A DNA stretch of 64,000 nucleotides from Candidatus Poribacteria bacterium (GTDB taxonomy: Bacteria; Poribacteria; WGA-4E; PCPOR2b). This document shows positions 3,737 through 26,445 of this stretch, piece after piece. Numbering within the stretch: the first letter of the stretch is position 1; the number at the start of each line of letters is the position of its first letter. The DNA is taken from assembly GCA_003635265.1 (NCBI GenBank), contig PYIZ01000021.1:29491-93490 (forward strand). Reading direction: 5' to 3'. The translations under genes and the position numbers were made by a program. A model generated the notes under the pieces. The model was not told the origin of the DNA. It was given only the letters and a program-made list of their open reading frames with translations, and made no database searches.

Positions 3737-3769
3737 TGCACGTCTCTTGTATCCGCTAATCGCACGGAT

Positions 3770-4972
3770 TCACGCCTTCAATTCTCCTACATAACGACGG
3801 ATCTTTGTCGCCGCCGTGACAATATCCGCCATATCTTCCTCGGTCCCCATCAGAACGCTCTGACCAAGTGCCAAACCGTTTTCACACAGTTTTTCCGCCT
3901 CTGAACAGGAAACGTTTGAATAGTCAGGTTTCGCGCTCAGGAGATCCGATTCCATAAACGGTTCTCGATACATCGGCGTCGTGTACCAATGCCCCATTGG
4001 AACGCCCTCCGCACGCATCGCCTTGATGAACGTTTCGCGGGAGATTCCTTCAAACTCCTCTGAGTCGAAAATCGCCTTATAGCCATGACAACCACCGCGG
4101 GTTGCGCGTGAATCCAGCGGCACCACCTTGATACCGGGTATCTCTCCCAGTCCAGCATCCAGAGATCGCATATTTGTATTGCGGAGGTTGACTTCGCCAT
4201 CCAACCGTTCAAGGCGTGAGAGGAGTAATCCACCCTGCCATTCTGTCATCCGAAAGTTCCCACCGAATGTTTCCGTCTCAAATTCAGATTCAGATGGAGA
4301 CCGTCCACAATTATGAATCGACCACGCCCGTTCATACAGTTTCCGATCGTTGGTCAGCACAATACCCCCCTCACCCGCACAGAGGTTCTTGGAGGATTGA
4401 AAGCTAAAACAACCGAGATGTCCCCAGCCGCCGACCCCTCTGTCCCGCCACTCCGCGCCGTGCGCTTGGGCACAGTCCTCAACCACAACGAGGTTGTTCC
4501 GTTCCGTAACTTCCAAAATCCCGTCCATATCGGCAGGATAGCCCGCAATATGAACCGGCAAGACAACTTTTGTCTTTGGTGTTATCGCCACCTCGATTTT
4601 CGATGGATCAATGTTGAAACCGTCGGGGAGTGTATCCACAAACACCGGCGTTCCATTCGCCATCAGAATCGACACCACCGTCGCTTGGAAGGTGTAAGGC
4701 GTTGTGATAACTTCGTCGCCAAGCCCAACACCCGCAGCCTTGAGTGCGACGAATAGCGCCGCCGTGCCGCTATTCACACAGACACCATATTTTACACCCT
4801 GAAATTGAGCGAAACGCTCCTCAAACTCAGGAACCCTTGACCCGCCGGTGCCCCATACCCCGCTCCGATAGATCTCCTCAAAGGTTTTGAGATCGTTATC
4901 GTCAAAGGTGGGCCACGACGGATACGGTTCCGTCCGAACAGGTGTGCCGCCGTTGATCGCTAAATTCGCCAT
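3770..4972 (-). CDS. DegT/DnrJ/EryC1/StrS family PLP-dependent aminotransferase
   Basis: The protein has 400 residues, the usual size for sugar aminotransferases of the DegT family. The pyridoxal phosphate lysine is K195 in F-Q-S-S-K-N, and D166 in V-V-V-E-D-C-A-Q is the residue that pairs with the cofactor ring nitrogen. The N-terminus N-G-G-T-P-V-R is typical of AHBA-synthase-like or StrS-like members. AGGAG lies 7 bases before the ATG. It follows the Gfo/Idh gene at 5024-6064 by 51 bp, and an oxidoreductase plus a DegT aminotransferase is the usual pair for making an amino-sugar or aminocyclitol. The actual substrate is not known. Confidence 0.88.
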   Translation of the reverse strand: MANLAINGGTPVRTEPYPSWPTFDDNDLKTFEEIYRSGVWGTGGSRVPEFEERFAQFQGVKYGVCVNSGTAALFVALKAAGVGLGDEVITTPYTFQATVVSILMANGTPVFVDTLPDGFNIDPSKIEVAITPKTKVVLPVHIAGYPADMDGILEVTERNNLVVVEDCAQAHGAEWRDRGVGGWGHLGCFSFQSSKNLCAGEGGIVLTNDRKLYERAWSIHNCGRSPSESEFETETFGGNFRMTEWQGGLLLSRLERLDGEVNLRNTNMRSLDAGLGEIPGIKVVPLDSRATRGGCHGYKAIFDSEEFEGISRETFIKAMRAEGVPMGHWYTTPMYREPFMESDLLSAKPDYSNVSCSEAEKLCENGLALGQSVLMGTEEDMADIVTAATKIRRYVGELKA

Positions 4973-5023
4973 TTTCGTACTCCTTGTATTGCTACGCGTT
5001 CGCCCTAAATCTGAGTAGGCAGA

Positions 5024-6064
5024 TTAAAGATCCAATCCGCTCAAATAATCCGCAATCCGTTTCGATTGTCCGTCAACGCTTGTCTCCATCGCCGCAATCA
5101 CTAGCGCGAAACTTTTGATGTTATCCTCAATTCGCGTTGCAGAAGGCGCGCCACCATCAATCCAGTTGATAAACTCGTCGAACAGATGCTCATGACCGAA
5201 GCGGGGTATTTCCGGTGCTTCGTATATCTCTGGATCCTGACCGACCCGATGAATCGTGACCTGAGCTTCACCCTCAATTTCGACACACCCATCCTCAAAT
5301 TCCGCGCGATAATGTTCATTATGCCAACAGTTGACGATGCCCGCAGCAGAACTGTTTCCCTCGTAACAGGTATGCACACCGTTGTCCATCTGCATCAAGT
5401 ACAATCCACTCGAAAAGTGCTTAAAACTAGACCACTCAGGATTCCAACCGAACCCGACCAGCGTCTCGCAGTCGCCGCCGGAGAGGAAACGCAGCATATC
5501 GAGATGGTGGACAGAACCCTCAAAAAGCAGGCTAAAATCCATATCGTGCCGCCACGCCTTACCCCACGATTGATAGCGCCGATAGTCACAGGCATATCGT
5601 CCCACAATATGCTGGAGCCGTCCTAACCGTCCCTCCTCCCGAATGCGAACCAACTCCTGCTTGTTCCTCGCATAACGGTAATTCTGTATAATCGCACACG
5701 GCATCCCAGTTTTCTGGGAAGTAGCCACCATCGCCTTTGCCGCTTCAAGTGTATCCGCGATCGGCTTTTCGCAGATCACCGGCATTCCGTTCTCCATCGC
5801 AGCGATGGCTGCGGGGCTGTGAAATGGTGGGGGTGTCGCAACGCCGCAGAAGTCCGCCTTGACCGTCGCACACGCCTCGTTAAAATCCGAAAACAACTGA
5901 TTTTCGCTGAGACCGAGTGCTGCGCCTTGCTCCTGCAACACGTCCGGCAGCACATCTGCCAATCCAATAATTTTGATCCGATCGCCGAAGTTATCAGCAA
6001 AGTTTCGGATCCAGCCGCCTGCCATGCCGCTGCCACCAATCATCAAACATGTCTTTTCTGCCAT
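5024..6064 (-). CDS. Gfo/Idh/MocA family oxidoreductase
   Basis: This 346-residue protein has an N-terminal Rossmann fold (M-I-G-G-S-G-M-A-G-G, 7-16) and the family motif C-E-K-P-I-A-D near residue 100, whose lysine takes part in catalysis. The C-terminal half is the usual alpha/beta dimerisation domain. Members oxidise or reduce sugars, inositols or similar polyols with NAD(P). GGAGG stands 6 bases before the ATG. With the DegT aminotransferase just downstream it could supply a keto-sugar for transamination; that link is inferred from position only. Confidence 0.87.
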   Translation of the reverse strand: MAEKTCLMIGGSGMAGGWIRNFADNFGDRIKIIGLADVLPDVLQEQGAALGLSENQLFSDFNEACATVKADFCGVATPPPFHSPAAIAAMENGMPVICEKPIADTLEAAKAMVATSQKTGMPCAIIQNYRYARNKQELVRIREEGRLGRLQHIVGRYACDYRRYQSWGKAWRHDMDFSLLFEGSVHHLDMLRFLSGGDCETLVGFGWNPEWSSFKHFSSGLYLMQMDNGVHTCYEGNSSAAGIVNCWHNEHYRAEFEDGCVEIEGEAQVTIHRVGQDPEIYEAPEIPRFGHEHLFDEFINWIDGGAPSATRIEDNIKSFALVIAAMETSVDGQSKRIADYLSGLDL

Positions 6065-6136
6065 CTAATACCTCCGTACCCTAAACATACACAGGTCTAT
6101 TTTTTGAACTTTTGTTGTCAGTGTCTCCTAGAGGAA

Positions 6137-6502
6137 TCACAGTTGAGGTTCGTGTTCGGAAGGGAACACATCCTTTCGTCCCAGTCCTTCGGCGAGTAGT
6201 GAAATAACCAATGCGTTCAGACTGACACCCTCATGTTCCGCTCGTTGAGCCAACCGTGTATGAAGGCTTTTGGGAACACGCTGAACCCATCTTCCACTTG
6301 ATGATCCTGGTGCGGGAATTTCATCTCGATGTACTCTTACTGTCTCTATCCAAGATCGTATTGCATCTCTGCCGTTCTCTATCGCTTCCTGGATTGTTTC
6401 CCCATCGGACATACAACCTGGCAGATCAGGATATTCAATCAAATATCCACCTCCCTCTGCCTCCGGCAATACGCTTGTAATAAACGGATACTCAAGTGCC
6501 AT
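6137..6502 (-). CDS. hicB: HicB family antitoxin-like protein (orphan)
   Basis: The 121-residue protein has a HicB-type N-terminal domain (G-G-Y-L-I-E-Y-P-D-L-P-G-C, then D-G-E-T-I-Q-E-A-I-E-N) and a C-terminal ribbon-helix-helix-like segment (R-V-P-K-S-L-H, V-S-L-N-A-L-V) for DNA binding. HicB normally neutralises the small mRNA interferase HicA encoded next to it. No HicA frame is visible on either side: the next 350 bp upstream are repeat sequence and downstream is a Gfo/Idh gene. It may be a stand-alone regulator or the remains of a toxin-antitoxin pair broken by the repeat element at 6581-6834. Confidence 0.8.
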   Translation of the reverse strand: MALEYPFITSVLPEAEGGGYLIEYPDLPGCMSDGETIQEAIENGRDAIRSWIETVRVHRDEIPAPGSSSGRWVQRVPKSLHTRLAQRAEHEGVSLNALVISLLAEGLGRKDVFPSEHEPQL

Positions 6503-6580
6503 TATGCTTTATCCCTTCAAGGCGAAAGCCTGTGGGGAATAACGATCGTTATTCTCTACGATGAACCTTTTATAAATTTT

Positions 6581-6834
6581 GGTGCTAGTTAGTGAGCAAG
6601 TCGTTTCCACATTGTTCGAGTCGCTTTGGATCCCGATTTATCGGGGAGTTCATCGGTTCGTTAGTTCATTCATTCTTCTTACGCCCCATCCTTCGGATAC
6701 ACATGTCGCCCCGCTGGGGCTTTAGGATATTTGTTTACCCGTGTACTATAGACATGTCGCCCCGCTGGGGCTAAGTGAATCCATGAATCAATAGTTTTCA
6801 CGTCTCACGTTATCAACAGCTGCAAACTAGCACC
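6581..6834 (-). repeat. MITE-like element, copy A (about 254 bp)
   Basis: The ends are 10-bp perfect inverted repeats, GGTGCTAGTT at 6581-6590 and AACTAGCACC at 6825-6834. Inside are two copies of a palindromic repeat (ACATGTCGCCCCGCTGGGGC at 6701 and 6752) and ATGAAC/TTAGTTCATT words. The reverse complement matches the element at 13141-13386 over nearly its whole length. TTTTATAA occurs just outside both ends (6568-6575 and 6839-6846), which may be a target-site duplication. It has no transposase; small frames inside are not genes. Confidence 0.75.
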
Positions 6835-6858
6835 ATCGTTTTATAAGCCTCGCCTGCT

Positions 6859-7899
6859 TCACAGCAGCAACTCTTTGAGGGACTCAATCAACCCATCGGG
6901 CGGGTCAAACGGCAGCTCAACAGGCTCATGCGTCAATGCACTGTGATAGATTCCCAAAATAGCATTAAACTCCGCAAGCGACTGTGCCAAGTGGGTCGGA
7001 TGCACCTTTTCCTCATCGTCAAGCCAATCGAACATCGCCTCAGTGAGACCCGCCTGTCCCAAGACATCCTGCTCACCGTACTCGTGCGCTCCCCGACTAT
7101 AGCCGTCTCCCGGTGTGTTGCGTTCCCATCCGTACATCCACCAATGGACAAACCCACGCTTTCCAAAAACGCGGACCCGTTTGTGCTGGAATACCGATTC
7201 ATGATCGCTAATTTCGGGCGAACCTCTGGTGCCAAACGTGACCAACGCCCGAACCCCGTTGGCATAGGTAATCGACGCTGTCGCATGATCGGGCGATGGC
7301 TGGGCGGTATCCAGATGTTCACCCCCTGCGACCTGACCGAAAACCTTGACCGGACGCGAATTGTCAATGTACGAGGAGACCAGTTGCAGCACATGGGGTC
7401 CCTGATCAATCGGCGTTGAACGCGCACTAGCATCAATAAAGTCGAGGTCTCCAATCGCCCCAGCGGCGACATCAGCTTTTAATTTCAGATTTGGCGGATG
7501 AAAATTGAGCTGCGTGTTCACCGCAAACTTGGTTTTGGTATTCTGGCATAAGTCGCTCAGTTGACGCCAATCCTCCCCCATCACCGCAATCGGCTTTTCG
7601 ACAATCGCGGCAGGCACTTCATGTTCCGATGCAATATTCATCAGCGGATAGCGGATCAACTCGTTCGATCCCCGCAGCACCGGCGCAGTCACGATATGCA
7701 GCAGATCGGGACGCTCCTTATCCAACATCTCATGGATGTCCGTGTACCGCTTCTCAACCTCAAATTCATCGCCGAAACTGTTGAGCAGCTCCTCGTTCAT
7801 ATCGCAAAGTGCGACAATCTCACCGCGCTCAATATGCTGATATGCGTGAGCGTGACCACGCGCCCGTCCGCCACAACCCAGAAATGCACATTTATACAT
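6859..7899 (-). CDS. Gfo/Idh/MocA family oxidoreductase
   Basis: I take the ATG at 7899 (346 residues, starting M-Y-K-C-A-F-L-G) because GGAGG stands 6 bases before it. The frame runs on to 7971, but those 24 extra codons are hydrophobic and lack a ribosome binding site. The Rossmann motif is G-C-G-G-R-A-R-G-H and the catalytic motif is V-E-K-P-I-A-V. Members are NAD(P)-dependent sugar or polyol oxidoreductases. It lies 171 bp after the two PhyH genes; the spacer carries a lone GGTGCTAGTTTGCAA end near 7949, like the MITE ends, so cotranscription is uncertain. Confidence 0.85.
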   Translation of the reverse strand: MYKCAFLGCGGRARGHAHAYQHIERGEIVALCDMNEELLNSFGDEFEVEKRYTDIHEMLDKERPDLLHIVTAPVLRGSNELIRYPLMNIASEHEVPAAIVEKPIAVMGEDWRQLSDLCQNTKTKFAVNTQLNFHPPNLKLKADVAAGAIGDLDFIDASARSTPIDQGPHVLQLVSSYIDNSRPVKVFGQVAGGEHLDTAQPSPDHATASITYANGVRALVTFGTRGSPEISDHESVFQHKRVRVFGKRGFVHWWMYGWERNTPGDGYSRGAHEYGEQDVLGQAGLTEAMFDWLDDEEKVHPTHLAQSLAEFNAILGIYHSALTHEPVELPFDPPDGLIESLKELLL

Positions 7900-8070
7900 T
7901 ATAAGCCTCCATAAATTATAACTGATTTGAAATAGGATAACGAATGGTGCTAGTTTGCAAGTGAAACGCAAAAAATAATCGACTCATGGGTTTAGCAATG
8001 AACCAATGAACTCACACAATCTTTGCCTTTACACCCCTTCTCACTTTCCCACTTTCTCACCTGCTTATCT

Positions 8071-8892
8071 TCATTCCTCCCACGAATCCAGCCCCAAAAG
8101 TTTTCGCCCTAACGGCGTCAATTCCGCGGTCTTGCCTTGAAAATGTTCCTTCTCTTTCTCTTCCTTGCCCAACCCTGTCAACCGTTCCTGCCACCCGGTG
8201 ATCCGTTTCTGACGCCCTTCCTCATTATCCTTCGGTGCCGGCGACATGGTGATATACTGCACAATTCGAGGACGATCCCCGCTGTTCGGGCTGCTCCCGT
8301 GTGGCAGCGCACTGTGCCAGATAACCAGATCCCCCGCTTTCCCCGCAACCGGCACGGCATCGGCATCACTCTCCTTAATAGCCTGCCGCGGCTCCGCATC
8401 TTCGGGTAGATCGTTGAGCCAATCCTCTAGTTTATGGTGAAATCCCGGTATACAGGTGAATGCCCCTTGATTGCCAGGTGTATCGGTCAGGTATAATACC
8501 CCCTGCACCTTGAGCCGAACCGGCATATCCAACGACATATCCCAATGCAGGTGGGGGCCCGGAAACTTATAGTCAGCCCGTTCCGGTGGGTTCAGGCTGC
8601 CGCGATCAAAGCTGACCCACAGTTTCTCATCCCCCCAAATCTCGGAAAAGGCTTGGTGGATCCGGGGATATTGCCGATTGTTCCATAACGCTTGATGCTG
8701 ATAAATCTCGACCATAATTCCGCGACGCGGCGGGTCTGGATACCACGTCTCTGGATCATCTGTATCCATTTCAAGAAAGTCCCAAATGGCACGCTCGGCT
8801 GCCCTACAATTCTCCGGCGGCACTGCGTCATGAACTACAACGTAGCCGTTCTCTTCCCAAAAATCTACATCTGCTGCACTTAAAACTGGCAT
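8071..8892 (-). CDS. Phytanoyl-CoA dioxygenase (PhyH) family protein
   Basis: This 273-residue Fe(II)/2-oxoglutarate oxygenase has the facial triad H116-x-D118 (L-H-W-D) and distal H198 (L-P-H-G-S-S-P-N), with the 2-oxoglutarate-binding arginine near R209. Such enzymes hydroxylate or halogenate small molecules, and related genes are expanded in Poribacteria-like genomes; the substrate is unknown. AGGAG lies 6 bases before the ATG. It follows the second PhyH gene by 62 bp in the same direction, and the two are only distantly alike, so they are probably not a recent tandem duplication. Confidence 0.88.
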   Translation of the reverse strand: MPVLSAADVDFWEENGYVVVHDAVPPENCRAAERAIWDFLEMDTDDPETWYPDPPRRGIMVEIYQHQALWNNRQYPRIHQAFSEIWGDEKLWVSFDRGSLNPPERADYKFPGPHLHWDMSLDMPVRLKVQGVLYLTDTPGNQGAFTCIPGFHHKLEDWLNDLPEDAEPRQAIKESDADAVPVAGKAGDLVIWHSALPHGSSPNSGDRPRIVQYITMSPAPKDNEEGRQKRITGWQERLTGLGKEEKEKEHFQGKTAELTPLGRKLLGLDSWEE

Positions 8893-8954
8893 ATCTTTCT
8901 CCTTGTTAATCTGGAATGGGTGAACGCTCTAATTCCTAAAAAACTCTGTGCACT

Positions 8955-9782
8955 CTACGTCCTCCGGATCTGGTCGCCTTCAGGTCTGGGAATGTGCTGC
9001 CAATAGCCCTCGCTGTCATCTCCACGACAGACGATACCTGAACCTTGCTTCGGATCTCTCCCACGCACATCCGGCGGAAAATAGCGCAGGGTGAGTCCGC
9101 AACGCCGCCGATTCGAGGTATTCGGCTCCGAGCCATGTAGCAACAGATCAGTATGTAGCGAAACCTGACCCGCCTTCATCTCAAAAGCAACGGGTGCTTC
9201 CCCATAATCCTCTGCCTGATGCACCGACTGACCCAGGACGTTATTTTCCTCCGCTGTGCTATGCTCGAAGGGAATCTGTCCGCCTAAATGTGATCCGGGG
9301 ATAACCTTCATTGCGCTATTTTCTTCATCTGCATCATCAATTGCCAACCAAACTGTAACAACCTTGCTGGGGGTCAGGGGCCAATAGGAGGCGTCTTGAT
9401 GCCACGTAACTCGTTTCGCATCGCCCGGCTCCTTACAGAAATAGTGGGTCATCGTGCAGATTAGATCCTCACCGAGTAGATCCTGCACATAATCGAGGAT
9501 ACGGCTGTCTAATGCCAGATCGTAAATCCCCCGGCAGGTAGGATGCCAACCGTTAATCGAATAACTGTTCAAACCGGCTGCTTTTGCCATCCCCATAATC
9601 CGATCGAAATACGCTCTGTTTGCCGTTACCTCCTCCTCTGTAAATACATCTAACGGAAAAATGTAACCCTTTTCGTTAAACTGATGAATCTGTTCCGCTG
9701 TCAGTTTTTGGGGATTGTTATTCTCGACCGGAAAGAATTTAAGTTCTCGCTTCATATCCGGCAACGCATCCATAATCGGCAT
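8955..9782 (-). CDS. Phytanoyl-CoA dioxygenase (PhyH) family protein
   Basis: This 275-residue protein is a second Fe(II)/2-oxoglutarate-dependent oxygenase. The metal triad is H128-Q-D130 (T-W-H-Q-D) and H216 (L-L-L-H-G-S-E-P-N), with an arginine-rich stretch after it that should hold the 2-oxoglutarate carboxylate. M-K-V-I-P-G-S-H at about 158-165 is typical of the family. The gene follows the MutL-type ATPase by 27 bp and precedes the other PhyH gene, forming a probable transcript of four genes (11922 to 8071). What joins a B12-mutase chaperone to PhyH enzymes is not clear. Confidence 0.88.
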   Translation of the reverse strand: MPIMDALPDMKRELKFFPVENNNPQKLTAEQIHQFNEKGYIFPLDVFTEEEVTANRAYFDRIMGMAKAAGLNSYSINGWHPTCRGIYDLALDSRILDYVQDLLGEDLICTMTHYFCKEPGDAKRVTWHQDASYWPLTPSKVVTVWLAIDDADEENSAMKVIPGSHLGGQIPFEHSTAEENNVLGQSVHQAEDYGEAPVAFEMKAGQVSLHTDLLLHGSEPNTSNRRRCGLTLRYFPPDVRGRDPKQGSGIVCRGDDSEGYWQHIPRPEGDQIRRT

Positions 9783-13414: not shown

Positions 13415-14362
13415 CTACAAATCTTGCAGCAAACATTTCCAACTCTGACGTTCACGGTTTGGATCAACAATCGGCTTTAATCCTTCACACCACGTTTTGA
13501 GTGTGTCATAAAATGCGGTATCCGTTTCAACGCGTATGAGCAGATCTCTTAACGCCTGTGTATCCTCTGTTGGAAAATACCCCGGATAATCCTCCCCTAA
13601 GAGACCGATCGAGCCAGATATCCGTGACGAAATGACGGGGACAGAACACGCAATCGCCTCGCAAACCACATTCGCCCCGCCCTCCATCTGCGAGGTAAGC
13701 ACAAGAACTCGACTCCGCGCGAGAACACGGAGTGCCCGCCAGCGCGGGAGTTCTCCCAACCAACGGTAGCGTGGATTGGCGGCGGCTTCGGTATCTGCCT
13801 GCACTCTCATGTCGTCGGTGAGCGCACCACCAACATGTACCACCTGAATCCGGGAAGACAGGGGCAGTCGTCGGGCTGCCATCGCGGTACGAAATGGGTC
13901 CTTCACAGGACGCAGATGCCCTAACACGCACAACTCGAAAATACCCTTTTTTGGGGAAAATTTCCCCGGTGGTGCCGTTATCGATTGGTAGATTACCCAC
14001 GCTTTGTGGCGCAGATGGTCTGAAAGTTCTTCAATGCCCGCGGGCTGCAACAAAATGAAACGATCCGCCATCTCCAGAGATTCTTGGGCTGACGCGTCCG
14101 TATGGATATCGCCGTAGAGATCTGTTCCAGTCAGAGCAAGTATCAGGGGCAGCTCCGGGTGTTTGTGGCGGAAACGCACAATGGAAGGATGGCTGCGACG
14201 TGCATGAAGTGCAACTAGCACATCGCATCGTTCCCCCTGATACTCCTCCGCAATAACGACACGGTGCCCCAGTTCTCGTAAGATACGAGCCCACCGAAGA
14301 GCAGTCACACGGTTACCCTTTCGGGAATATGTTGGGGCAGGGGTAACTAGGCAGATTTTCAT
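13415..14362 (-). CDS. senB: SenB-type selenosugar synthase (TIGR04348-like GT4 glycosyltransferase)
   Basis: The 315-residue protein has the features I associate with the TIGR04348/SenB family: N-terminus M-K-I-C-L-V-T-P-A-P, then G-N-R-V-T-A-L-R-W-A-R-I-L, L-V-A-L-H-A-R-R-S, A-L-T-G-T-D-L-Y and L-L-Q-P-A-G. A GT4 C-terminal domain follows with S-Q-M-E-G-G-A-N-V-V-C-E-A as nucleotide-sugar site. SenB joins selenophosphate to a UDP-sugar, giving a selenosugar, the first step of selenoneine synthesis in known systems. It starts 3 bp after the selD stop, which supports this role strongly because SelD makes the selenophosphate. No SenA (EgtB-like) gene is in the window, so the final product is open. 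Confidence 0.8.
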   Translation of the reverse strand: MKICLVTPAPTYSRKGNRVTALRWARILRELGHRVVIAEEYQGERCDVLVALHARRSHPSIVRFRHKHPELPLILALTGTDLYGDIHTDASAQESLEMADRFILLQPAGIEELSDHLRHKAWVIYQSITAPPGKFSPKKGIFELCVLGHLRPVKDPFRTAMAARRLPLSSRIQVVHVGGALTDDMRVQADTEAAANPRYRWLGELPRWRALRVLARSRVLVLTSQMEGGANVVCEAIACSVPVISSRISGSIGLLGEDYPGYFPTEDTQALRDLLIRVETDTAFYDTLKTWCEGLKPIVDPNRERQSWKCLLQDL

Positions 14363-14365: not shown

Positions 14366-15427
14366 TCAGACAAACACAAGATGACTCGGTTCAACAAAGG
14401 ACTTCACATGCCCGATGACCTGCGCCTCTGTCACACCGCCATTGCGCAAAGCTGTCAGCAGCGATTCACTCTGACCGGCAGGCACAGACATCAGCAATCC
14501 ACCACTAGTCTGCGGATCCACAAAGATTTCCTCGTGCCAATCAGGAAGTGATTTTTCAAAGTGTACAAAATCTTCAATCAATGCTCGATTGGCGGCGTTG
14601 ACACCTGTTCGCATCCCTTTCTCATACATCTCCAACGCCTCACGCATAATCGGCACATCATCAACCCGAATCTCCAAAGTCACTTCGGATCCCTCTGCCA
14701 TTTCCAAGGCATGACCTCCCAATCCGAATCCAGTGATGTCTGTTACCGCATGGATGTCAAACTTAGCCATAACCGCCGCCGCACCCTTGTTGAGCGTCGT
14801 GATAGCCCCTATACATTCGTCTAACGCTTGATCTGACACCCAATTTTTCAGGTTGGCGTTAAAAATCACGCCGCTACCGATCGGTTTGGTCAAAATCAGG
14901 ACATCCCCCGGCTCTGCACCAACGTTTCGCCAATACTTTTCCGGATGCACAATTCCAGTGACCGACAACCCAAACTTCGGTTCCTCATCATCGGTCGTAT
15001 GCCCACCCGCCAAAACTGCGCCAGATTCGGTGATTTTACTCAACGCACCTTCGACAATCCCGTGCAGGATCTCTGGATCCAATTTATCCGCAGGAAACCC
15101 CACCAAATTCAGGCAGGTCACAGGTTTTCCGCCCATCGCATAAATATCACTGATTGAATTAGCAGCAGCAATCTGACCGAACAGATACGGGTCATCTACC
15201 GGCGGCGTAATAAAGTCAGCGGTCGTAACTAGTGCCATCTCGTCGTTGAGGCGGTAAATACCAGCGTCGTCGCTAGTTTCAAATCCAACCAGCAGATTCG
15301 GATCGTTTTTCTTCGGCAATTTGGCGAGCAGTTCTCCCAGCCCAACTGGACTGACCTTCGCCGCTCACCCGCACGTCTTTGCCAAACTTGTTAGGGTATG
15401 TTTTCGGGACAATCTATTTAGGTTCAT
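14366..15427 (-). CDS. selD: Selenide, water dikinase SelD, itself a UGA-encoded selenoprotein
   Basis: SelD makes selenophosphate from selenide and ATP. A plain reading starts at 15319 and lacks the catalytic end. Reading on through a TGA at 15365-15367 restores it: from ATG at 15427 (GGAG 7 bases upstream) residues 19-27 read C-G-U-A-A-K-V-S-P, matching the family's G-(C/U)-A-A-K catalytic motif, with U21 in the active position and K24 the essential lysine. Total 353 residues, normal length. After the UGA the mRNA can fold into nested stems (GGCGA/TCGCC, CAGT/ACTG, CCAG/CTGG) with a T-T-G-G-G loop 20-24 bases on, a fair bacterial SECIS. The gene ends in another TGA at 14366-14368, which must act as a stop. 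senB follows after 3 bp. Confidence 0.92.
15323..15367 (-). promoter_or_regulatory. Candidate bacterial SECIS element and Sec codon of selD
   Basis: On the coding strand the UGA (15367-15365) is followed by GCGGCGAAGG..., which can form three nested helices: GGCGA with TCGCC (5 bp), CAGT with ACTG (4 bp) and CCAG with CTGG (4 bp, stacked on the previous one), closing a 5-base T-T-G-G-G loop. Known bacterial SECIS hairpins also sit just after the UGA and carry a G in the apical loop. Pairing was judged by eye; no folding energy was computed. Confidence 0.6.
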
Positions 15428-15779: not shown

Positions 15780-15986
15780 TTATGCAATCACGGCTTTCGC
15801 TTGCGCCAACGCCTCGGATTCTGCATCAGCGCGGGTCGCAGCCGTAGACCGAGCAATGACAGCACCAGGACTCACGTTATCTACAGTGCAGATATACGCA
15901 TCACCGAGTTGATAAGATCTGATCCGAACCGTCCATTTCCCAATAGATTCGGTTCGAGTTTGATGGTTTTTAGGAGTTTGCGCCAT
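15780..15986 (-). CDS. Small basic protein downstream of the Sec-containing methyltransferase
   Basis: This 68-residue protein is not one I can name. It has a strong ribosome binding site (AAAGGAGG 7 bases before ATG) and a protein-like composition: a central W-T-V-R-I-R-S-Y and Y-I-C-T-V-D-N-V-S-P-G-A, then an alanine-rich helix (A-D-A-E-S-E-A-L-A-Q-A). The strand-strand-strand-helix order suggests a small alpha/beta fold such as a dsRBD- or HicB-like fold. It starts 29 bp after the methyltransferase stop, so it is probably the last gene of the operon that begins at 20129. Confidence 0.72.
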   Translation of the reverse strand: MAQTPKNHQTRTESIGKWTVRIRSYQLGDAYICTVDNVSPGAVIARSTAATRADAESEALAQAKAVIA

Positions 15987-16015: not shown

Positions 16016-17125
16016 TTAGCCCCATACCCTTCTAGCAGTCTCAACAACCACCGATAACTTACGCCTCTGGTCTTCTTCCGTAATGCGATTGCCGAGGACC
16101 GAAGTTGAAAAGCCACACTGCGGGCTTAACGCAAGTCGCTCTAGCGGCACAAATTGACTGGCTTGTCTGATGCGCCCTGCGAGTGCTTCCGGCGTCTCTC
16201 TACGCGGTGTTTTCGTCGTGACCAACCCTAAAACGGCAATCTTGTCATCGGGGATCACCTGCAACGGTTCAAATGAACCGGAGCGTTCATCATCGTATTC
16301 GAGTAGCAGACGCTGGGCACGGATGCCTCGGAAAATCGGTTTGGCAATCAGATCATATCCCCCTTCGACCAACCACCGGCTGCCCTGATTGCCGCGTCAG
16401 AGGTGAAAGCCAAAAGTCACCTTTGGAAAATCACCAATTACAGCGTTATCCATCTCAATACCCCGGTCTAACCACTGATCAAGACGCCAACCTTGCCCTT
16501 CGTAGAAGGTTCTCGTCTTGGGATCGAGCAGCAACGGATAATGGGGGGCATCGAGTTGAATATAGGTTGCACCCAATCGGACCAACTCAGCGACCTCGTC
16601 CCGCATAATGTCAACGACATCCGCAAGAAAACTGTCAAGCGTGGGATAGGCAGGCGGGGAGTGTTCTGACGACCAGAAGTTTGTCCACAAGCTGGGACTA
16701 GGCAACGTAATCTTCGGTATACGCGTCGTCCGCGCTCGTAGGTAGATAAATTCCTCCGCTGAGAGGTGCCGTTTGCGACTGAGTTTACCAATAACACCCA
16801 AGTTTTTGGGGCGTTCTAGACTTAAGTCCCCCGTATCTTCATCACCATGCCAATCACCCCAAAGGAACGCATCAAGATCGTATTCGCCGAAACCGGTGAT
16901 TGCTTCCGTCATCTGGCACTGGAAGGACAATCGACGCATCTCGCCATCCGTCACAACCTCCAAGCCTACCGCCTCCTGAAGCATAACCGCTTCATCAACC
17001 GCTTGATCTTCGATGGCTTTGAACGCCGTTTGCGTGATTTTGCCCACAGCAACATCGCTTCTTGCTTTGAGAAGTTCTGGCGGACGGAGCAAACTTCCAA
17101 CGACGTCGGTATGCGCAGCGATCAT
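16016..17125 (-). CDS. MetE-like cobalamin-independent methyltransferase with probable selenocysteine (UGA) as zinc ligand
   Basis: Standard calling gives two fragments, 16397-17131 and 16016-16372, in the same frame and separated only by TGA at 16397-16399. Joined, they give a full ~369-residue COG0620 protein (MetE C-terminal-like TIM barrel), starting A-H-T-D-V-V-G-S-L-L-R-P. The family's zinc motif is H-x-C-R-G-N; here it reads H-L-U-R-G-N, so UGA replaces exactly the zinc-ligand cysteine. The other ligands are intact: H241, probably E276 in L-L-L-E-Y-D-D, and C337 in S-P-Q-C-G-F. Nothing else is frameshifted. The organism's SelD gene is 0.6 kb downstream and also needs UGA read as Sec. 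I prefer the second ATG (17125), 6 bases after GAGGG. Methyl donor and acceptor are unknown; related enzymes methylate homocysteine or transfer alkyl groups to coenzyme M. Confidence 0.85.
16371..16399 (-). promoter_or_regulatory. Possible SECIS hairpin after the UGA of the MetE-like gene
   Basis: After the UGA (16399-16397) and five bases, CAATCA can pair with TGGTTG (six pairs, one G-T), with an inner GG/CC pair closing a G-C-A-G loop. The loop begins with G, as in bacterial SECIS elements, but lies only about 14 bases from the UGA, a little near. Judged by eye, weaker than the selD hairpin. Confidence 0.4.
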
Positions 17126-17185
17126 GGGCATCCCTCACAATGATGATCGGGTTGATGTCGCACGGTTCCCAGTGCTAGCACCGTT

Positions 17186-18214
17186 TTACGCGCTCCCGGC
17201 AAATTTGACACCAATCTCATCCTGACTCAGTTTTTCCGAATGGGCAGAGATATCAATCCCATACAGACCGGCGGCGTTTTCACCCAAGACCTTGCGCTTG
17301 GCTTCTGGCGTAAGGTCAACCCCATATTCCTCTTTGATATCGTCCGGCAACTCAAGCGCCATAAATTTCTCAATCAACCACTTGGGTGTCCAGATTGCAT
17401 AGTCGCTGCCAAAAATCATCCTATCCTCACCTAACCAAAACAGCAGATTCGCTACTATCTCGGCGAAATATTTCGGGCGTGAGTGGATGAACGCCATCGC
17501 CACCGACATGCCGGCATAGACGTTCTTCTCCTGCGTGGCAATCCAACAGAAATCGTCTAACCGTGGCAGTCCAATATGCTCAATGATGAAGTTAAGATTG
17601 GGGAAGTCAGTTGCGGCATAATCCACATCGGCGACATCAAAAGCATCGCGGTTGAGGGGATAAACCGTCGGTCCCTTGTGGACATGGATATTTTTAACTC
17701 CAAGTTCTTCGGCAAGCTCGAAATACTTGTAAGCCCACGGGTCATTCAGTCGCCAACCTTTCGAGCCGTTTCGCCATTCGGCGGTGTAGAGTTTGAGTCC
17801 CTGAATCGGGTAATCTTCCACCATTTGCCGGAACGCATCCAGTCCTGCCTCCTCCGCTCTAGGGTCGAAGGAACCGCACAGAATAAAACGGTCGGGGTAT
17901 TTCGCTTTGATCGCATTGTTCTGTTGGTGAGTGTTAAATCCATTTTTGTAAAACTCGTAAAGATACGTTGAATTGAGGATGGCAACGTCAACATACCCCT
18001 CCGAGAAGAGATCGTCGATCAGCGTCTCTTCACCGTATTTGCAATACTTTTCAAAGGACCAGACATATTCTTCCGGACTGAGGGCGGTATGAAAATCATA
18101 GAAACAGCGGATCCAACCTTCGCCATACTCATTGCGCCAGTTTTCCGGGTTGGCGTCCCAAAAGTGCATATGCCCGTCAACAACAAAAATTTCCTGCCCA
18201 TTTTCTCTATACAT
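17186..18214 (-). CDS. Amidohydrolase family 2 (TIM-barrel) protein
   Basis: This 342-residue protein starts at the ATG at 18214, where AAGGAG stands 7 bases upstream (the frame continues to 18244). The metal motif H15-x-H17 is in V-D-G-H-M-H-F-W; further metal or catalytic residues are suggested by N-I-H-V-H-K-G, I-I-E-H-I-G and F-G-S-D-Y-A. These enzymes hydrolyse or decarboxylate carboxylated rings and similar substrates. As I recall, the set amidohydrolase, MIP18/DUF59 protein and Zn-alcohol dehydrogenase also accompanies propane monooxygenase (prm) genes in Rhodococcus; no monooxygenase is present here. 54-60 bp separate it from the Sec methyltransferase. Confidence 0.87.
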   Translation of the reverse strand: MYRENGQEIFVVDGHMHFWDANPENWRNEYGEGWIRCFYDFHTALSPEEYVWSFEKYCKYGEETLIDDLFSEGYVDVAILNSTYLYEFYKNGFNTHQQNNAIKAKYPDRFILCGSFDPRAEEAGLDAFRQMVEDYPIQGLKLYTAEWRNGSKGWRLNDPWAYKYFELAEELGVKNIHVHKGPTVYPLNRDAFDVADVDYAATDFPNLNFIIEHIGLPRLDDFCWIATQEKNVYAGMSVAMAFIHSRPKYFAEIVANLLFWLGEDRMIFGSDYAIWTPKWLIEKFMALELPDDIKEEYGVDLTPEAKRKVLGENAAGLYGIDISAHSEKLSQDEIGVKFAGSA

Positions 18215-18258
18215 TGTAAGGCTCCTTGTACATTTTATCGGCATTTATGACGCATAGC

Positions 18259-19020
18259 TTAGTTTTTACCTTTCCGTGCTGCCAACACAGCGGCACAGAA
18301 CGACCCGTTCGCTTGCAGGGCAACGCGCACAGTGCGTGCACGTATCAGATACTTCTCTAACTGCTCGGCAGTGACCTCCCTACCGCGGAGATCGATTATC
18401 AAAGGCGCAGCGGGCGAGCAATCAAGGTTCATTTCCGCTCGACGCTGGAAGTATTGACGAGCGACTTCAGCCTCCCCAACATCACAAATCCGACCATCGT
18501 TACGCCGGATCCGATAAGATTCGCCCTCAAAATAGAGGTCGCCAATGCGTCGGACAGCAATCTCCTCAAGTGATAAACCCACACTTTTCAAATTCTGCAA
18601 CAGGCGCTCCTGACGCCTGATATACCCCTTGCGGAGAAAAAGATCGCTGAGTTGACACAGATCTTCAGATGCCTCATCCGGAAAAGCCTGTGAGAAGGAT
18701 TTGCCAGTATTTACACCCGCCTCAATTGTCTTCGCAGCAAAATGATCTTTCAACCGAACCGTGACATCGTGGATCCCCCCAACCGTCAAAAGTTCACGGC
18801 GGGTATCCTCAGCCATCATATAGGAGAAGTTGGGCGCACACCAGTAGGTTGGAAGGTGTAGTTCAATTGTTAGATGATCGCTTTCAACTTCAATCGACTT
18901 GACGAAACCAAGTTTGAGGATGGGCTCATCAAGTTCGGGATCAAGCACCCTCTCCAGCTGTCTGAAGATGACCTCTTGATCCAAAGTATCAGGAAGCGAT
19001 AACCGCACATCATCGTACAT
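18259..19020 (-). CDS. MIP18/DUF59 family iron-sulfur assembly-like protein with extra C-terminal domain
   Basis: Residues 20-110 match the MIP18 (DUF59, SufT/PaaD-like) fold: L-D-P-E-L-D-E-P-I-L, L-G-F-V-K-S-I and the conserved cysteine in T-Y-W-C-A-P. The rest, about 140 residues, is an alpha/beta region I cannot assign. The start at 19020 (M-Y-D-D-V-R, 253 residues) is chosen because GGAGGG lies just before it; an upstream ATG at 19032 overlaps that site. DUF59 proteins help mature Fe-S or other metal enzymes. Its place between an alcohol dehydrogenase and an amidohydrolase suggests it serves one of the operon's metalloproteins. Confidence 0.82.
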   Translation of the reverse strand: MYDDVRLSLPDTLDQEVIFRQLERVLDPELDEPILKLGFVKSIEVESDHLTIELHLPTYWCAPNFSYMMAEDTRRELLTVGGIHDVTVRLKDHFAAKTIEAGVNTGKSFSQAFPDEASEDLCQLSDLFLRKGYIRRQERLLQNLKSVGLSLEEIAVRRIGDLYFEGESYRIRRNDGRICDVGEAEVARQYFQRRAEMNLDCSPAAPLIIDLRGREVTAEQLEKYLIRARTVRVALQANGSFCAAVLAARKGKN

Positions 19021-19085
19021 TTTTCCCTCCATTTACACCGCGGTATGTTTGTCACAATAGACCCATCAATTTGTGTGACAGGGAA

Positions 19086-20129
19086 TTAGGGAACAATAAC
19101 TCCCCGACCCACAATCTGACGATTTTTGAAGTCCGTGATAGCAGTGTTAATGTCGTCCAGCGAGTACTCTTGTGCACGCATGTTGACGCGCCCTTCAGCG
19201 TTAAGCTCCATCAATTCGACCAATTCCGTGTAATTGCCAACAAGGCTGCCGACAATTGCGATTTCATTGATGATCATGTGAACGGTGGGAACTTCAATTT
19301 TACCGCCGTAACCGACAACGAAGTGCGTTCCACCTTGACGCAACATCTGCCAGCAGAGCTGTTCCGCACCGAGTTCTCCGACAAAATCAATGACGGCGTG
19401 GGCACCGCCTCCGGTGAGTTCTTTCAATTCCTCAACGACATCGGGACCGCCGTCAAGCACATGGTGAGCCCCTAGGTCTTTAGCCAGCTTTCGGGCAGCC
19501 TCACTCCGGTCAATGGCAATGGTACGGGTGCCGCACAGCTCATGCAAACACTGGAGGGCAATATGTCCTAACCCACCTACACCGAGGATCGCACAATAAC
19601 TGCCCGGATTCAATATCTTCGCCGCCCGCTTGGCAACCCGGTAGGCGGTGATGCCAGCATCCGCCATGGGAGCCACATTTACCGGCAACACATTCTCATT
19701 AAGCTTAATCAACGCCCGCTCGTTGGTCAGGAAATACTCGGCAAAACCACCATTGTCGCTCAACCCCGGAAATGCGTTGTTCTCGCAGTACATATCCTCG
19801 CCCCGGCGGCAGCCGGCACAGATTCCGCACGACCGCAAGGGATGGCAAATAACGGCATCACCCGGCTTCACCGATTTCACGCCACTGCCGACCTCCTCAA
19901 CCCAACCCGCGTTTTCATGCCCCATGATATAGGGCAACAACGCGCTGTCCGCATCCATCACGTCCCGCCATACCCCTTCAATGATGTGCAGATCTGTTCG
20001 GCACAAGCCAGCAGCACCAACGCGAACAATCACATCCTCAGGATCACTGATGGTTGGCTCAGGTACGCTTTCAATTTTAAGATCGACGTTCATCTCTTTA
20101 TCATACGCATATAGTTGAGCAGCTTTCAT
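19086..20129 (-). CDS. Zinc-dependent alcohol dehydrogenase (MDR family)
   Basis: This 347-residue medium-chain dehydrogenase has the catalytic zinc residues (G-L-C-R-T-D-L-H; G-H-E-N-A-G), the structural zinc cysteines in C-G-I-C-A-G-C...Y-C-E and the NAD-binding motif G-V-G-G-L-G-H. It is like bacterial secondary/primary alcohol dehydrogenases, including the Adh1-type enzyme encoded near propane monooxygenase. It is the first gene of a tight minus-strand run (65, 44 and 60 bp gaps) with the DUF59 protein, amidohydrolase and Sec-containing methyltransferase, which suggests one catabolic pathway for a small alcohol or alkylated compound. Confidence 0.92.
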   Translation of the reverse strand: MKAAQLYAYDKEMNVDLKIESVPEPTISDPEDVIVRVGAAGLCRTDLHIIEGVWRDVMDADSALLPYIMGHENAGWVEEVGSGVKSVKPGDAVICHPLRSCGICAGCRRGEDMYCENNAFPGLSDNGGFAEYFLTNERALIKLNENVLPVNVAPMADAGITAYRVAKRAAKILNPGSYCAILGVGGLGHIALQCLHELCGTRTIAIDRSEAARKLAKDLGAHHVLDGGPDVVEELKELTGGGAHAVIDFVGELGAEQLCWQMLRQGGTHFVVGYGGKIEVPTVHMIINEIAIVGSLVGNYTELVELMELNAEGRVNMRAQEYSLDDINTAITDFKNRQIVGRGVIVP

Positions 20130-22377: not shown

Positions 22378-25300
22378 ATGAAACAGGCATACCAACATAT
22401 ATTCCGAGCAGCAACATTTGCGCTTGCACTCATAATATTACTCATCGGTTGTAGGCAAGACGTGACCCGCAAGGCAGATTGGGAAGTCAATTTTACAGAC
22501 CTACACTTCGCAGATGCTGAACGCGGATGGATCGTCGGCGAAAAGGGAATGATCGTCCATACAAAGGATGGTGGAAAAACGTGGGAACGCCAAGAAGTTG
22601 GAACAGAAGGTGATTTTAAGGCGGTCTATTTCACCAACCACCGCTACGGTTGGGCGGTTGGCGATAGAGGTTTAATCGCTACCACCGATGACGGCCGCCG
22701 CTGGCATCTCCAAGACAGTGGCACCTTAGCAACGCTCCGGGATGTCCACTTCGCAAACTCCGATGAGGGGTGGATCGTCGGAGAGGATGCCGATATTCTG
22801 TACACGAAGAACGGCGGCAAGACGTGGGAACGCTATGAATATATCAGCGAGTTCCCGCTCAGTGGCGTCTGGTTTGCTACCAAGCGTCGGGGTTGGACTG
22901 TTGGCGCAAACGATCGAATTTTCTTCACAGAGGACGGTGGCAAAACGTGGCGGCAGCAGACTAATCGCTACGAGGGCGAACGCGACCGGATGATCAACGA
23001 CAACAAGCGAGTCTTCTTCATCAGTCAAAACGAGGGCTGGCTTGTCGGGACCGATGGCTCAATCTTCCACACGACAAATGGCGGTGCCGAATGGACGCGT
23101 CAGGACAGCCGCATCCCACTGATCAACGGACATGTTCGGGATACCGTCAACAGTATTCATTTCATAGATAATGAACGTGGCGTGGCGGTCGCTGACATCG
23201 GTTTCATCACGTTCACAGAGGACGGCGGAGACAATTGGCGATTGTTGGAGAGTGGCACCGAAAATAATCTGACCGGGGTTCAGTTCACCAGTCCAAACGA
23301 GGCGTGGGCGGTCGGCTGGCAGGGCACAATCATGCACTCAAAGGACGGTGGGGAGACGTGGACAATAGCCAGCGGCACTACCGCCAACAACCTTGAGGAG
23401 ATACAGTTTGCTGATGGGAACCGGGCAATCGCTGTCGGCGAAAAAGGGACCATCGCCATGAGTCAGGACGGCGGACAAACGTGGACTGAGGTTCAAACGG
23501 ACATCTGGGACCATATCCGAAGCCTTTATTTTGTCTCCGATCTAGAGGGTTGGGCGGTCGGCGATCGTGGTATGATTGTCCACACATCCGATGGCGGACA
23601 GAGTTGGGAAACCCAAAGAAGCGGGTGGTGGTACTCGCTCCGGGGCACCTACTTCGTCAGCCCCAAAAAAGGCTGGGTCGTTGGCGATATGGGGACAGTC
23701 TTGCATACCGCTGACAGCGGCGAATCATGGATACAGCAGACCCCGGGCGAATTTCATATGCTCAAAGAGGTGTTTTTCCTCAACGAAAAGGAAGGCTGGT
23801 CGGTCGGTTGGCCCGGCATCGTTATCCACACAGCCAATGGCGGACTGACATGGACGCAACAAAAGACACCCACCTATAATGAACTGTACGCAATCTACTT
23901 TATCGACAACAAAAACGGCTGGGTGACTGGGCAGTTCGGAGAAATCCTACACACCAAAGATGGTGGAAAAACGTGGAGATTCCAACCCAGCGGCGTGGAG
24001 GTAAACCTGAATAAGGTCTACTTCGCCGATAAAAAGCACGGTCTCATTGTGGGAGATGGCGGCGTTATCCTCACCACCACCAACGGTGGGAAGAAATGGG
24101 AGAAACAGGAGAGCGACACAGAGAACGACCTTTACGGATTCGCGCTTTCACCGGAAGGGATGGTCGCTGTCGGTAAAGGCGGAATTGCGATGCGCTGCTC
24201 TGTTGATGCGGAAGAACTGCCCGCCGAACTCCCTCCTCTGGCAGACCGAACGGAAGCCACCGATGTTATCGAAGAACCGGAGGTTGTTGAGGAGGTCACC
24301 TATCATTGGGACATCGTCCGTCAGGCAACTTGGCAGACCGATTTCACCGACACCTATTTTCATCGCACGGCGGATGAACCAGCTGCTTTACGCGGGTGGG
24401 CGGTCGGATCCGGTGGTGTGATTGCACACACGACAGATGGCGGCAAAACATGGCTGCCCCAACACAGCGGTGTGAAGGATGATTTGCGTCGCATCACTTT
24501 TGTCGACGAAGATCATGGGTGGATCGCCGGACGCGGTGTGCTGCTCCGGACAGAAAACGGTGGCCAAACGTGGCAAGTCATCAAAAAGGTAGTGCAAAAC
24601 TTCCGGCGGATCAGTGCCATGCAGTTTATCAATAAACAGGAGGGTTGGCTCGGCGCTGATCAGGGACAAACGCTCCATACGACGGACGGCGGCGTAACGT
24701 GGAAACTCCAGAAAACCGGGACAACGAACCAACCAATCACGGCACTTCATTTCGTCAATAGCACCGAAGGCTGGGCAATTACCGCCCAACGGGTCGAAGG
24801 CGGCTTGGTTCTGCATACGGTCAACGGCGGGGACTACTGGGAGATTCAGGACAAGACCCATCAGCCTGCTGCTGCAGTGCATTTCGCCGATGCGAAGTCC
24901 GGCTGGATTGTGGGCAGGGACGGTAGATCTTTCATCACGCAGGACGGCGGCGTGACGTGGAAACAAATCCTCCCGGAAGACATGGTAGAAGGGCTTCGTC
25001 GAATCAAATTTCATGACCATCAACGTGCGTGGGGAATCGATCGTAGTGGGGCTATCCTTGTGACAAACGATCAAGGCGAGAGTTGGCTGCCAAACTATGT
25101 AGGGCTCGAGACAGCAGCAGAACTAATTGCTCAACGTAAACAGGTGGAAATGGAGGCAGCAGCGGATAACGCGCAAGAGCCACAGTCAGCGGTTACCAAC
25201 CCGTTGGACGATAATTTTACTGACATCTTTCAGAGAGATATGACTGAGCAGCGATCGCGTGCCGGGCGTATCACGCCTGTCCAAGAGGATCCCGTGAACG

Positions 25301-26445
25301 GGGAAGGTGAGATTGAAACCGATACCGAAGATACAACTGTCACACAAACCAACACGGAAACCGAAAACCGGGAAAGACCAACCCGCCGTCGTCGAGGTCT
25401 CCGTCAATCTGGGCTGCCAATCACTAATGTGCATTTCATCGGCGATCAACACGCGTGGGCAGTTGGCGACGCAGGACAGATTTATCATACCGCGAATGGT
25501 GGACAAACGTGGGAACGGCAACTTGGCGAACAACTCGACGACTTCCGGGATATCCTTTTCCTAGACAGCAAACACGGTTGGATTACCGGAGATAACGGGA
25601 TACTGCTGGAAACTCGGGACGGTGGGCGAACCTGGACCCACCTGCAAAGCGAAACCGCACAGAGGCTTGTCGGCATTCACTTTGCCAATGTGTCAGGGTT
25701 AAACTCCGAAGACACGACCCGATGGGGCTGGTCCATGCGGCGTGACGGCACTGTGCTGTACACAACTAACGGTGTGAAATGGTCGGCAGGACAAACCCCG
25801 ACACGTCCGGGATTATTTGAGGAAGATCCCCCGCTACCCTTTGAGATAAACGATGTTGCGTTTGGGGCTTTCTCCGAAGGTTGGGCTGTCGGCAGAGATG
25901 GACAGATTATCCATAACCAAGACGGAGGTCCGATCTGGACACCCCAACGCACCTCCACAGGGAAAGACCTCGAAAGGGTCGAGATGAAATTTGCGCCGCT
26001 CGGTTGGGCGGTTGGGCATAGCGGCATCATCCAACGAACAATCAATGGGGGCGGATATTGGAAACATCATGAGACCGACACCGGTTATGATCTGTACGGG
26101 GTGTCATTCATCACAAAACGGAAGGGATGGGCGGCTGGCGATTACGGCATCATCCTCCGTACAACAGGGGGCGGATTTAAGTGGGAAGCCTTGTCGAGCG
26201 GTGTCACCGAAACGCTCTACGGCATCCTCGCTTTGTCGGAGCAGGAAATCTACGCCGTTGGTGCGTCCGGCACAATACTCCGCTCAATGGATGGCGGCAC
26301 GACATGGGAGCGAGAACATACGGACATCTCCAACAACCTGTATACTATCGTCCGCGCCCCAGACGACGATGTACTATGGGTGGTCGGTCAGTGGGGCGTT
26401 GTCCTTCGGCGGGAGCTTAATGCCAAAAAAATGTCAATGCGGTAG
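22378..26445 (+). CDS. Giant YCF48/BNR-repeat lipoprotein
   Basis: The 1355-residue protein starts with a lipoprotein signal (hydrophobic helix, L-L-I-G-C with C25 as lipidation site) and then about 28 repeats of the YCF48/photosynthesis-assembly type (G-W-x-V-G-x-x-G-x-I-x-x-T-x-D-G-G-x-T-W). They come in three blocks of about 14, 6 and 8 blades, divided by acidic or low-complexity linkers at about 615-640 and 910-1015, the latter containing R-R-R-R-G. Each block should fold as one or two beta-propellers. Length far exceeds the 300-400 residues of usual members. AGGAG lies 10 bases upstream. It is the first gene of an operon with Uma2 and VWA genes; function is unknown, perhaps a surface scaffold. 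Confidence 0.9.
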   Translation: MKQAYQHIFRAATFALALIILLIGCRQDVTRKADWEVNFTDLHFADAERGWIVGEKGMIVHTKDGGKTWERQEVGTEGDFKAVYFTNHRYGWAVGDRGLIATTDDGRRWHLQDSGTLATLRDVHFANSDEGWIVGEDADILYTKNGGKTWERYEYISEFPLSGVWFATKRRGWTVGANDRIFFTEDGGKTWRQQTNRYEGERDRMINDNKRVFFISQNEGWLVGTDGSIFHTTNGGAEWTRQDSRIPLINGHVRDTVNSIHFIDNERGVAVADIGFITFTEDGGDNWRLLESGTENNLTGVQFTSPNEAWAVGWQGTIMHSKDGGETWTIASGTTANNLEEIQFADGNRAIAVGEKGTIAMSQDGGQTWTEVQTDIWDHIRSLYFVSDLEGWAVGDRGMIVHTSDGGQSWETQRSGWWYSLRGTYFVSPKKGWVVGDMGTVLHTADSGESWIQQTPGEFHMLKEVFFLNEKEGWSVGWPGIVIHTANGGLTWTQQKTPTYNELYAIYFIDNKNGWVTGQFGEILHTKDGGKTWRFQPSGVEVNLNKVYFADKKHGLIVGDGGVILTTTNGGKKWEKQESDTENDLYGFALSPEGMVAVGKGGIAMRCSVDAEELPAELPPLADRTEATDVIEEPEVVEEVTYHWDIVRQATWQTDFTDTYFHRTADEPAALRGWAVGSGGVIAHTTDGGKTWLPQHSGVKDDLRRITFVDEDHGWIAGRGVLLRTENGGQTWQVIKKVVQNFRRISAMQFINKQEGWLGADQGQTLHTTDGGVTWKLQKTGTTNQPITALHFVNSTEGWAITAQRVEGGLVLHTVNGGDYWEIQDKTHQPAAAVHFADAKSGWIVGRDGRSFITQDGGVTWKQILPEDMVEGLRRIKFHDHQRAWGIDRSGAILVTNDQGESWLPNYVGLETAAELIAQRKQVEMEAAADNAQEPQSAVTNPLDDNFTDIFQRDMTEQRSRAGRITPVQEDPVNGEGEIETDTEDTTVTQTNTETENRERPTRRRRGLRQSGLPITNVHFIGDQHAWAVGDAGQIYHTANGGQTWERQLGEQLDDFRDILFLDSKHGWITGDNGILLETRDGGRTWTHLQSETAQRLVGIHFANVSGLNSEDTTRWGWSMRRDGTVLYTTNGVKWSAGQTPTRPGLFEEDPPLPFEINDVAFGAFSEGWAVGRDGQIIHNQDGGPIWTPQRTSTGKDLERVEMKFAPLGWAVGHSGIIQRTINGGGYWKHHETDTGYDLYGVSFITKRKGWAAGDYGIILRTTGGGFKWEALSSGVTETLYGILALSEQEIYAVGASGTILRSMDGGTTWEREHTDISNNLYTIVRAPDDDVLWVVGQWGVVLRRELNAKKMSMR

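Follow-up and report, generated by a model that had tools for sequence, protein, structure and literature searches.

We identify a MetE-like methyltransferase gene (PF01717) that has an in-frame UGA codon where its homologues encode the conserved zinc cysteine; judged by comparative sequence analysis, this codon is probably read as selenocysteine (Sec). The gene lies in the window, a 64,000-nucleotide stretch of Candidatus Poribacteria DNA belonging to a 5.3-Mb draft genome (G000). With good confidence, we read its product as a methyltransferase in which Sec would bind the catalytic zinc that activates homocysteine. A sequence-only reading of the same DNA had put the gene forward as a candidate new selenoprotein, a proposal supported by the conservation of the UGA codon, by the selection acting on the sequence around it and by the Sec machinery of the genome.

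Reading frame, family and active-site residues

The gene and its predicted zinc-site codons are located as follows:

16016..17131, minus strand: MetE-like gene (PF01717) of 371 codons and a stop codon, interrupted by an in-frame UGA
16397..16399, minus strand: TGA, codon 245, in place of the conserved zinc cysteine (H-L-UGA-R-G-N); predicted Sec codon
16403..16405, minus strand: H243 codon, predicted zinc ligand, invariant in the alignment
16298..16300, minus strand: E278 codon, probable zinc ligand, invariant in the alignment and in 19 of 19 UGA forms
16115..16117, minus strand: C339 codon, predicted zinc ligand, invariant in the alignment and in 19 of 19 UGA forms

The open frame of 244 aa at 17131..16400 and the sequence beyond it down to 16016 constitute a single minus-strand frame whose sole break is the TGA at 16399..16397, confirming the earlier description of two fragments parted by this codon alone. 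A second ATG two codons after the first would yield a product of 369 instead of 371 aa; the residues numbered H241, 243, E276 and C337 from that second ATG in the sequence-only reading are H243, 245, E278 and C339 here. When the TGA is read through, the 371-aa product matches PF01717 over residues 8-344 in a profile search, scoring 52 bits against a cut-off of 21. It falls below the cut-offs of the more specific profiles, with 36.4 bits in a single domain for TIGR01371, which describes true MetE (cut-off 929.95), 234.8 bits for PRK06520 (cut-off 313) and 230.7 bits for PRK06233 (cut-off 576).

Among the matches listed, residue 245 is Cys in 120 of 120 full-length database homologues, as expected if the UGA stands at the conserved zinc cysteine. 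Seven residues (H243, C/U245, E278, C339, S13, E64 and D194) are conserved in all 121 alignment rows, the row of the window carrying U at 245, and the claim that the remaining ligands are intact thus holds throughout the alignment. In sequence, the first four match the zinc residues of E. coli MetE (His641, Cys643, Glu665 and Cys726) and the last three its homocysteine residues (Ser433, Glu484 and Asp599), as given in the available text of PMC7857596. A structure model of the protein has a pLDDT of 90.7, and its nearest folds are B12-independent methionine synthases; second in the fold search is 3rpd, a MesD, at 23% identity.

Conservation and proposed decoding of the UGA codon

An orthologue (79-100% identity) is present in 7 of 58 relatives, counting the window's own genome, and each copy contains exactly one TGA. 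These seven comprise all six same-genus genomes, among which no copy with a normal Cys codon was found, and one orthologue from another genus of the family. Three Candidatus Poribacteria loci (L009-L011, 86-87% identity) belong to genomes G004, G002 and G003 and did not enter the counts a second time. When close orthologues (>=61% identity) were examined as DNA, with each genome entered once, 19 of 36 carried UGA and 17 carried Cys, with no third state; both of the variants anticipated at the zinc-cysteine position were therefore found. The UGA forms span five phyla, although they are not independent (6 of the 19 belong to one genus) and metagenome-assembled genomes may be incomplete or mixed. 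Retention of the same UGA in five phyla excludes a sequencing error. Among the loci sampled, UGA was seen in Poribacteria (3), Acidobacteria, Methylomirabilota, Planctomycetota and one further bacterium; two Rubrobacteraceae, one Nitrospira and one Chloroflexota record had Cys. Across genomes, matches were obtained in 21 of 95 from the phylum of the Methylomirabilota record (E 1e-110; TGA in 4), in 5 of 347 from that of the Acidobacteria record (TGA in 3) and in 14 of 400 from that of the Chloroflexota record (E 1e-130; TGA in 3). Sixteen far relatives (53-57% identity), kept out of the 36, contain no stop, and all 11 that were seen as DNA encode Cys.

With the N-terminal piece as query, the best 120 matches comprised 6 full-length Cys forms and 114 others. 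Of the latter, 112 have ...HL as their last residues, precisely the point at which the UGA would follow (these are protein records, not DNA). This suggests that gene callers truncate the MetE-like protein in 112 of 114 further clusters among the matches listed. On a FastTree tree of 233 N-terminal parts, of which 113 were labelled U (the 112 ...HL records and the window) and 120 Cys, the labels require 10 changes between the two states, compared with 77.9 in shuffles, and at least three changes are forced by well-supported branches. From this tree, Sec and Cys seem to have been swapped several times in the history of the family. The Chloroflexota provide a close pair of states: the codon is TGA in loci L142 and L143 and TGT in L144. 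Ahead of this codon the sequences are 89% identical, and L142 and L143 each have two neighbours in common with L144.

Gene callers terminate the protein at the UGA, as would be expected if the codon ended translation and the gene were degraded or naturally truncated. The sequence beyond it argues strongly against this reading. In five same-genus pairs, dN/dS is 0.08-0.11 before the UGA and 0.08-0.14 after it; a sixth pair, the window with locus L069, gives 0.07 after the UGA (its half before the UGA is out of register through an indel and was left out of the count), and three further pairs give 0.06-0.13 before and 0.12-0.16 after. Purifying selection thus persists after the UGA and is as strong as before it. 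All 19 UGA forms have zero additional stops in the 125 codons after the UGA, and all retain E278 and C339, two predicted zinc ligands that a shortened product would be without. The UGA is, moreover, retained in five phyla and swapped for Cys codons only. We consequently regard a genuine stop as very improbable, in agreement with the earlier judgement that an intact C-terminal half makes a pseudogene unlikely.

The genome encodes the components that Sec insertion requires of it. The sequence-only reading had proposed a search for selA, selB and selC in the rest of the genome, and selA (599 bits), selB (372 bits) and tRNA-Sec (76.6 bits) were all found, adjoining one another on contig C10. Within the window, the gene for selenophosphate synthetase follows the MetE-like gene:

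14366..15427, minus strand: selD (SenC), selenophosphate synthetase (TIGR00476, 376 bits, cut-off 125)

As had been noted, this selD, some 0.6 kb downstream, has a UGA of its own: an in-frame TGA at 15367..15365, within a C-G-U-A-A-K stretch, which terminates the selD reading frame as well. For decoding of UGA as another residue, such as Trp, through a changed code or plain leakage, we found no supporting points. The aligned residue is never Trp in the 120 listed full-length homologues, and selA, selB and tRNA-Sec together with the second UGA-interrupted frame point to Sec, making this the least probable of the readings considered. Across genomes, tRNA-Sec scored above the Rfam cut-off in all 16 UGA genomes tested (3 Chloroflexota UGA genomes lie outside this count), in 5 of 7 genomes tested with near-Cys forms (one marginally, at 48.1 against 47; 10 Chloroflexota Cys genomes lie outside this count) and in 12 of 16 far-Cys genomes. 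Among the genomes tested, the UGA form was not seen without tRNA-Sec, and the Cys form occurs both with and without it, bearing in mind that drafts may be incomplete. SelA and SelB have been reported to co-occur in most sponge symbiont genomes of one set, according to the available text of PMC5649159.

A candidate insertion element lies immediately 3' of the UGA, with nucleotides numbered from its U as 1:

16367..16385, minus strand: predicted SECIS stem-loop; nt 18-22 pair with 26-30, loop GGU at 23-25, outer pairs 15-16/32-33

The stem of 18-22 with 26-30 forms in each of 16 UGA forms, and its loop at 23-25 is GGU (15) or GUU (1); in the three Chloroflexota UGA forms it is GUU. The codons at the apex are biased in the UGA forms (Ser AGC in 16/16, Arg CGG in 15/16), whereas the commonest codon has a mean share of 0.61 at 63 invariant residues, just 4 of which attain 0.93. 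Near-Cys forms use CGC (loop GCU) in 13 of 17 cases and UGA forms in 0 of 19. These counts come from related sequences and are not independent, and all 7 near-Cys forms tested can likewise form four of the five inner pairs. An apparent split in Leu codons (first YTG in 16/16 UGA forms and 0/7 near-Cys forms) was discarded, since the larger set gave 19/19 UGA against 9/17 near-Cys forms. The selD of the window has a similar stem after its own UGA, with the loop AGUU at 21-24, and the E. coli fdhF element has a GGU loop at about the same distance. At the gathering threshold no Rfam family matched in the window, nor were any tRNA genes found in it. The proposed check for a SECIS element thus returned a candidate stem-loop with conserved apex codons, whose stem is partly shared with Cys forms and which corresponds to no Rfam match.

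Genomic neighbourhood and selenoneine genes

The remaining neighbours of the gene are the following:

13415..14362, minus strand: senB, selenosugar synthase of selenoneine biosynthesis (TIGR04348, 397.3 bits, cut-off 300)
17186-18244, minus strand: amidohydrolase, upstream neighbour
18259-19032, minus strand: FeS_assembly_P/DUF59-type protein, upstream neighbour
19086-20129, minus strand: zinc alcohol dehydrogenase, upstream neighbour

The MetE-like gene, selD and senB are consecutive in all six same-genus genomes (G000-G005), and the upstream row (17186..20129, minus strand) recurs in whole or in part in 4 of the 5 others. Between the MetE-like gene and selD lies a 68-aa frame (15780-15986, minus strand) that tblastn aligns to other same-genus loci at 84-95% identity over 44-67 aa and, among the loci examined, to none outside them. 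Further along the window, W-x-V-G and G-G-x-T-W stretches recur many times in a 1355-aa open frame (22378-26445, plus strand).

Selenoneine genes (senA, senB-selD or egtD) stand beside the MetE-like gene in 13 of 19 UGA genomes, an association that is new here. Neither figure consists of independent cases, as a single genus contributes 6 genomes to each. In the phylum of the Methylomirabilota record, G062, G078 and G081 carry egtD, the UGA form, senA and a transporter ATPase, and G077 carries egtD, the UGA form and a partial or broken senA. In G063 senA comes next after the UGA form, in G066 (Planctomycetota) senA, senB, the UGA form and an egtD-like gene stand together, and in G342 senB and senA lie 5.6 kb away from it. 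The other six UGA genomes (G008, G061, G468, G665, G585 and G816) show no selenoneine genes in stretches of 3.8-17 kb. Adjoining sen or egtD genes were seen in 2 of 17 near-Cys forms, one of them with egtD only, and in 0 of 11 stretches around far-Cys forms.

At the level of whole genomes, senA scored above its cut-off in 13 of 16 UGA, 3 of 7 near-Cys, 4 of 16 far-Cys and 14 of 41 non-carrier genomes. The corresponding figures for Chloroflexota are 0 of 3 UGA, 2 of 11 Cys and 1 of 66 non-carriers, one of the 11 Cys genomes (G067) being also within the first survey. Overall, 13 of 19 UGA genomes have senA, the window's genome included and the partial genes of G342 and G077 not counted. The gene is not always part of a selenoneine cluster: the Chloroflexota carriers are without sen genes in 14 of 14 stretches of 4.4-17 kb, and 2 of these 14 genomes, both Cys carriers, have senA. 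The window's genome itself contains a second selenoneine locus with a betaine-type ABC transporter (L117, contig C44, 8685-13429), where senA, egtD, an ABC ATPase and a fused OpuAC/permease gene stand in a row. Taken together, it is possible that the MetE-like gene is a missing partner of selenoneine metabolism.

Two further gene settings were seen outside the window's genus. In locus L135 (G826, 6820-9478) the Cys form comes directly after an MTTB (trimethylamine methyltransferase-type) gene, a single case that offers methylamine or betaine donors as a lead. In L069 (G008, 2876-6636) a group-22 nickel-pincer isomerase, a flavoprotein, a UbiA prenyltransferase and a TIM-barrel protein stand beside the UGA form, a setting unlike that of the window's genus.

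The neighbourhood also bears on the substrate. The same Sec protein might instead move a methyl group from Se-methylselenoneine, methylselenol or another methylated selenium or sulfur compound of this kind to homocysteine, freeing a selenol for SelD and SenB or restoring selenoneine, and Sec would then be used because the substrate is a selenium compound. Such a role is consistent with the intact homocysteine site, with the selD and senB that follow in 6 of 6 same-genus genomes and with the senA and senB that adjoin the gene in other phyla. It agrees poorly with the three Chloroflexota UGA genomes, all of which are without sen genes nearby and without senA above cut-off, and with the near-Cys forms, most of which (all but 2 of 17) have no sen genes beside them. 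We know of no methylated selenium compounds from bacteria carrying this gene, and consider this role rather unlikely.

Proposed reaction and relation to known systems

In the mechanism that we favour, SelB, directed by the predicted stem-loop that follows the UGA, would insert Sec245. A single zinc would be held by H243, Sec245, E278 and C339, and homocysteine by S13, E64 and D194; the zinc would turn homocysteine into a thiolate, and the zinc-bound thiolate would accept the methyl group. In the Sec form, selenium would replace one sulfur ligand of the zinc, which might provide a better nucleophile or a site harder to kill by oxidation. Because the homocysteine residues and the other zinc residues are intact, the protein is predicted to perform zinc-activated methyl transfer to homocysteine with Sec as a zinc ligand, and this transfer would, with moderate confidence, yield methionine. 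Since the first domain of MetE is missing, we infer that the methyl donor is not methyl-folate held by that domain.

The setting of the reaction is more tentative. It may well be methionine regeneration feeding S-adenosylmethionine to EgtD, which makes hercynine, the selenoneine precursor, although we hold this with somewhat less than even confidence. Stripping methyl groups from methylated selenium would fit the neighbourhood as well; we lean to methionine supply. None of the six same-genus genomes has a MetH that is full-length or above cut-off; a partial match was seen in one. The window's genome also encodes four distantly related MetE-like proteins in uninterrupted frames, and methionine could be made by any of these. 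As a general rule, the notion that the protein stands in for MetH was rejected, as MetH scores above cut-off in 6 of 16 UGA genomes; methionine supply is for the same reason not the sole possible role.

The closest known proteins are the single-domain B12-independent methionine synthase-like proteins of PRK06520 and PRK06233 (PDB 1ypx, Listeria), from which the window protein differs in having a Sec codon at the Cys position. MetE (TIGR01371) has two domains, whereas the window protein is without the first and has Sec where MetE has Cys643. The core methionine synthases MesA-MesD resemble it in consisting of the catalytic domain alone, with the same zinc and homocysteine residues; compared by residues and fold, however, it is 23% identical to 3rpd, and the available text of PMC7857596 describes no Sec member. 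Its likeness to the SenA-SenB-SenC pathway is one of position, selD and senB being adjacent in the window's genus and senA or egtD in other phyla. That pathway needs SenA, SenB and SenC, and no MetE-like partner is mentioned in PMC9814287 or in the available text of PMC10891094. Known Sec methyltransferases (arsenite methyltransferase, methylated-DNA-protein-cysteine methyltransferase and MduS) also combine methyl transfer with Sec at a Cys position, but they belong to other domain families, none of them listed as PF01717 in PMC13188914.

Among the 119 prokaryotic selenoprotein families tabulated there in May 2026, there is no PF01717, MetE or COG0620 entry, and the available texts of three other surveys (PMC9312934, PMC12013277 and PMC2398784) make no mention of methionine synthase or COG0620. 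No MetE-like selenoprotein was found in the main texts of the open literature, supplements aside, or in the 119-family table, in keeping with the earlier statement that selenium as a zinc ligand in a methyltransferase is not known to have been described. Metal contact, zinc included, is predicted for about a fifth of known selenoprotein families (PMC13188914), so Sec near zinc is not new as such. What appears to be new, as far as literature searches go, is Sec as a predicted ligand of the catalytic zinc of a methyltransferase.

The same 2026 review anticipates redox roles for most selenoproteins that are still uncharacterised (PMC13188914). Against that expectation, the present gene adds a selenoprotein family spanning five phyla in which selenium is predicted to sit on a catalytic zinc. 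A more speculative extension, which we consider doubtful, is a selenocysteine-zinc methyltransferase shuttling methyl groups between homocysteine and selenoneine-type compounds inside a selenium natural-product pathway; if true, the same cell would put selenium into both an enzyme and its substrate. Such an enzyme would be the first methyltransferase known with selenocysteine as a ligand of its catalytic zinc. Because natural Sec and Cys versions exist, as in L142 and L143 versus L144 (about 89% identity), the effect of selenium at a zinc-thiolate methyltransferase is directly testable.
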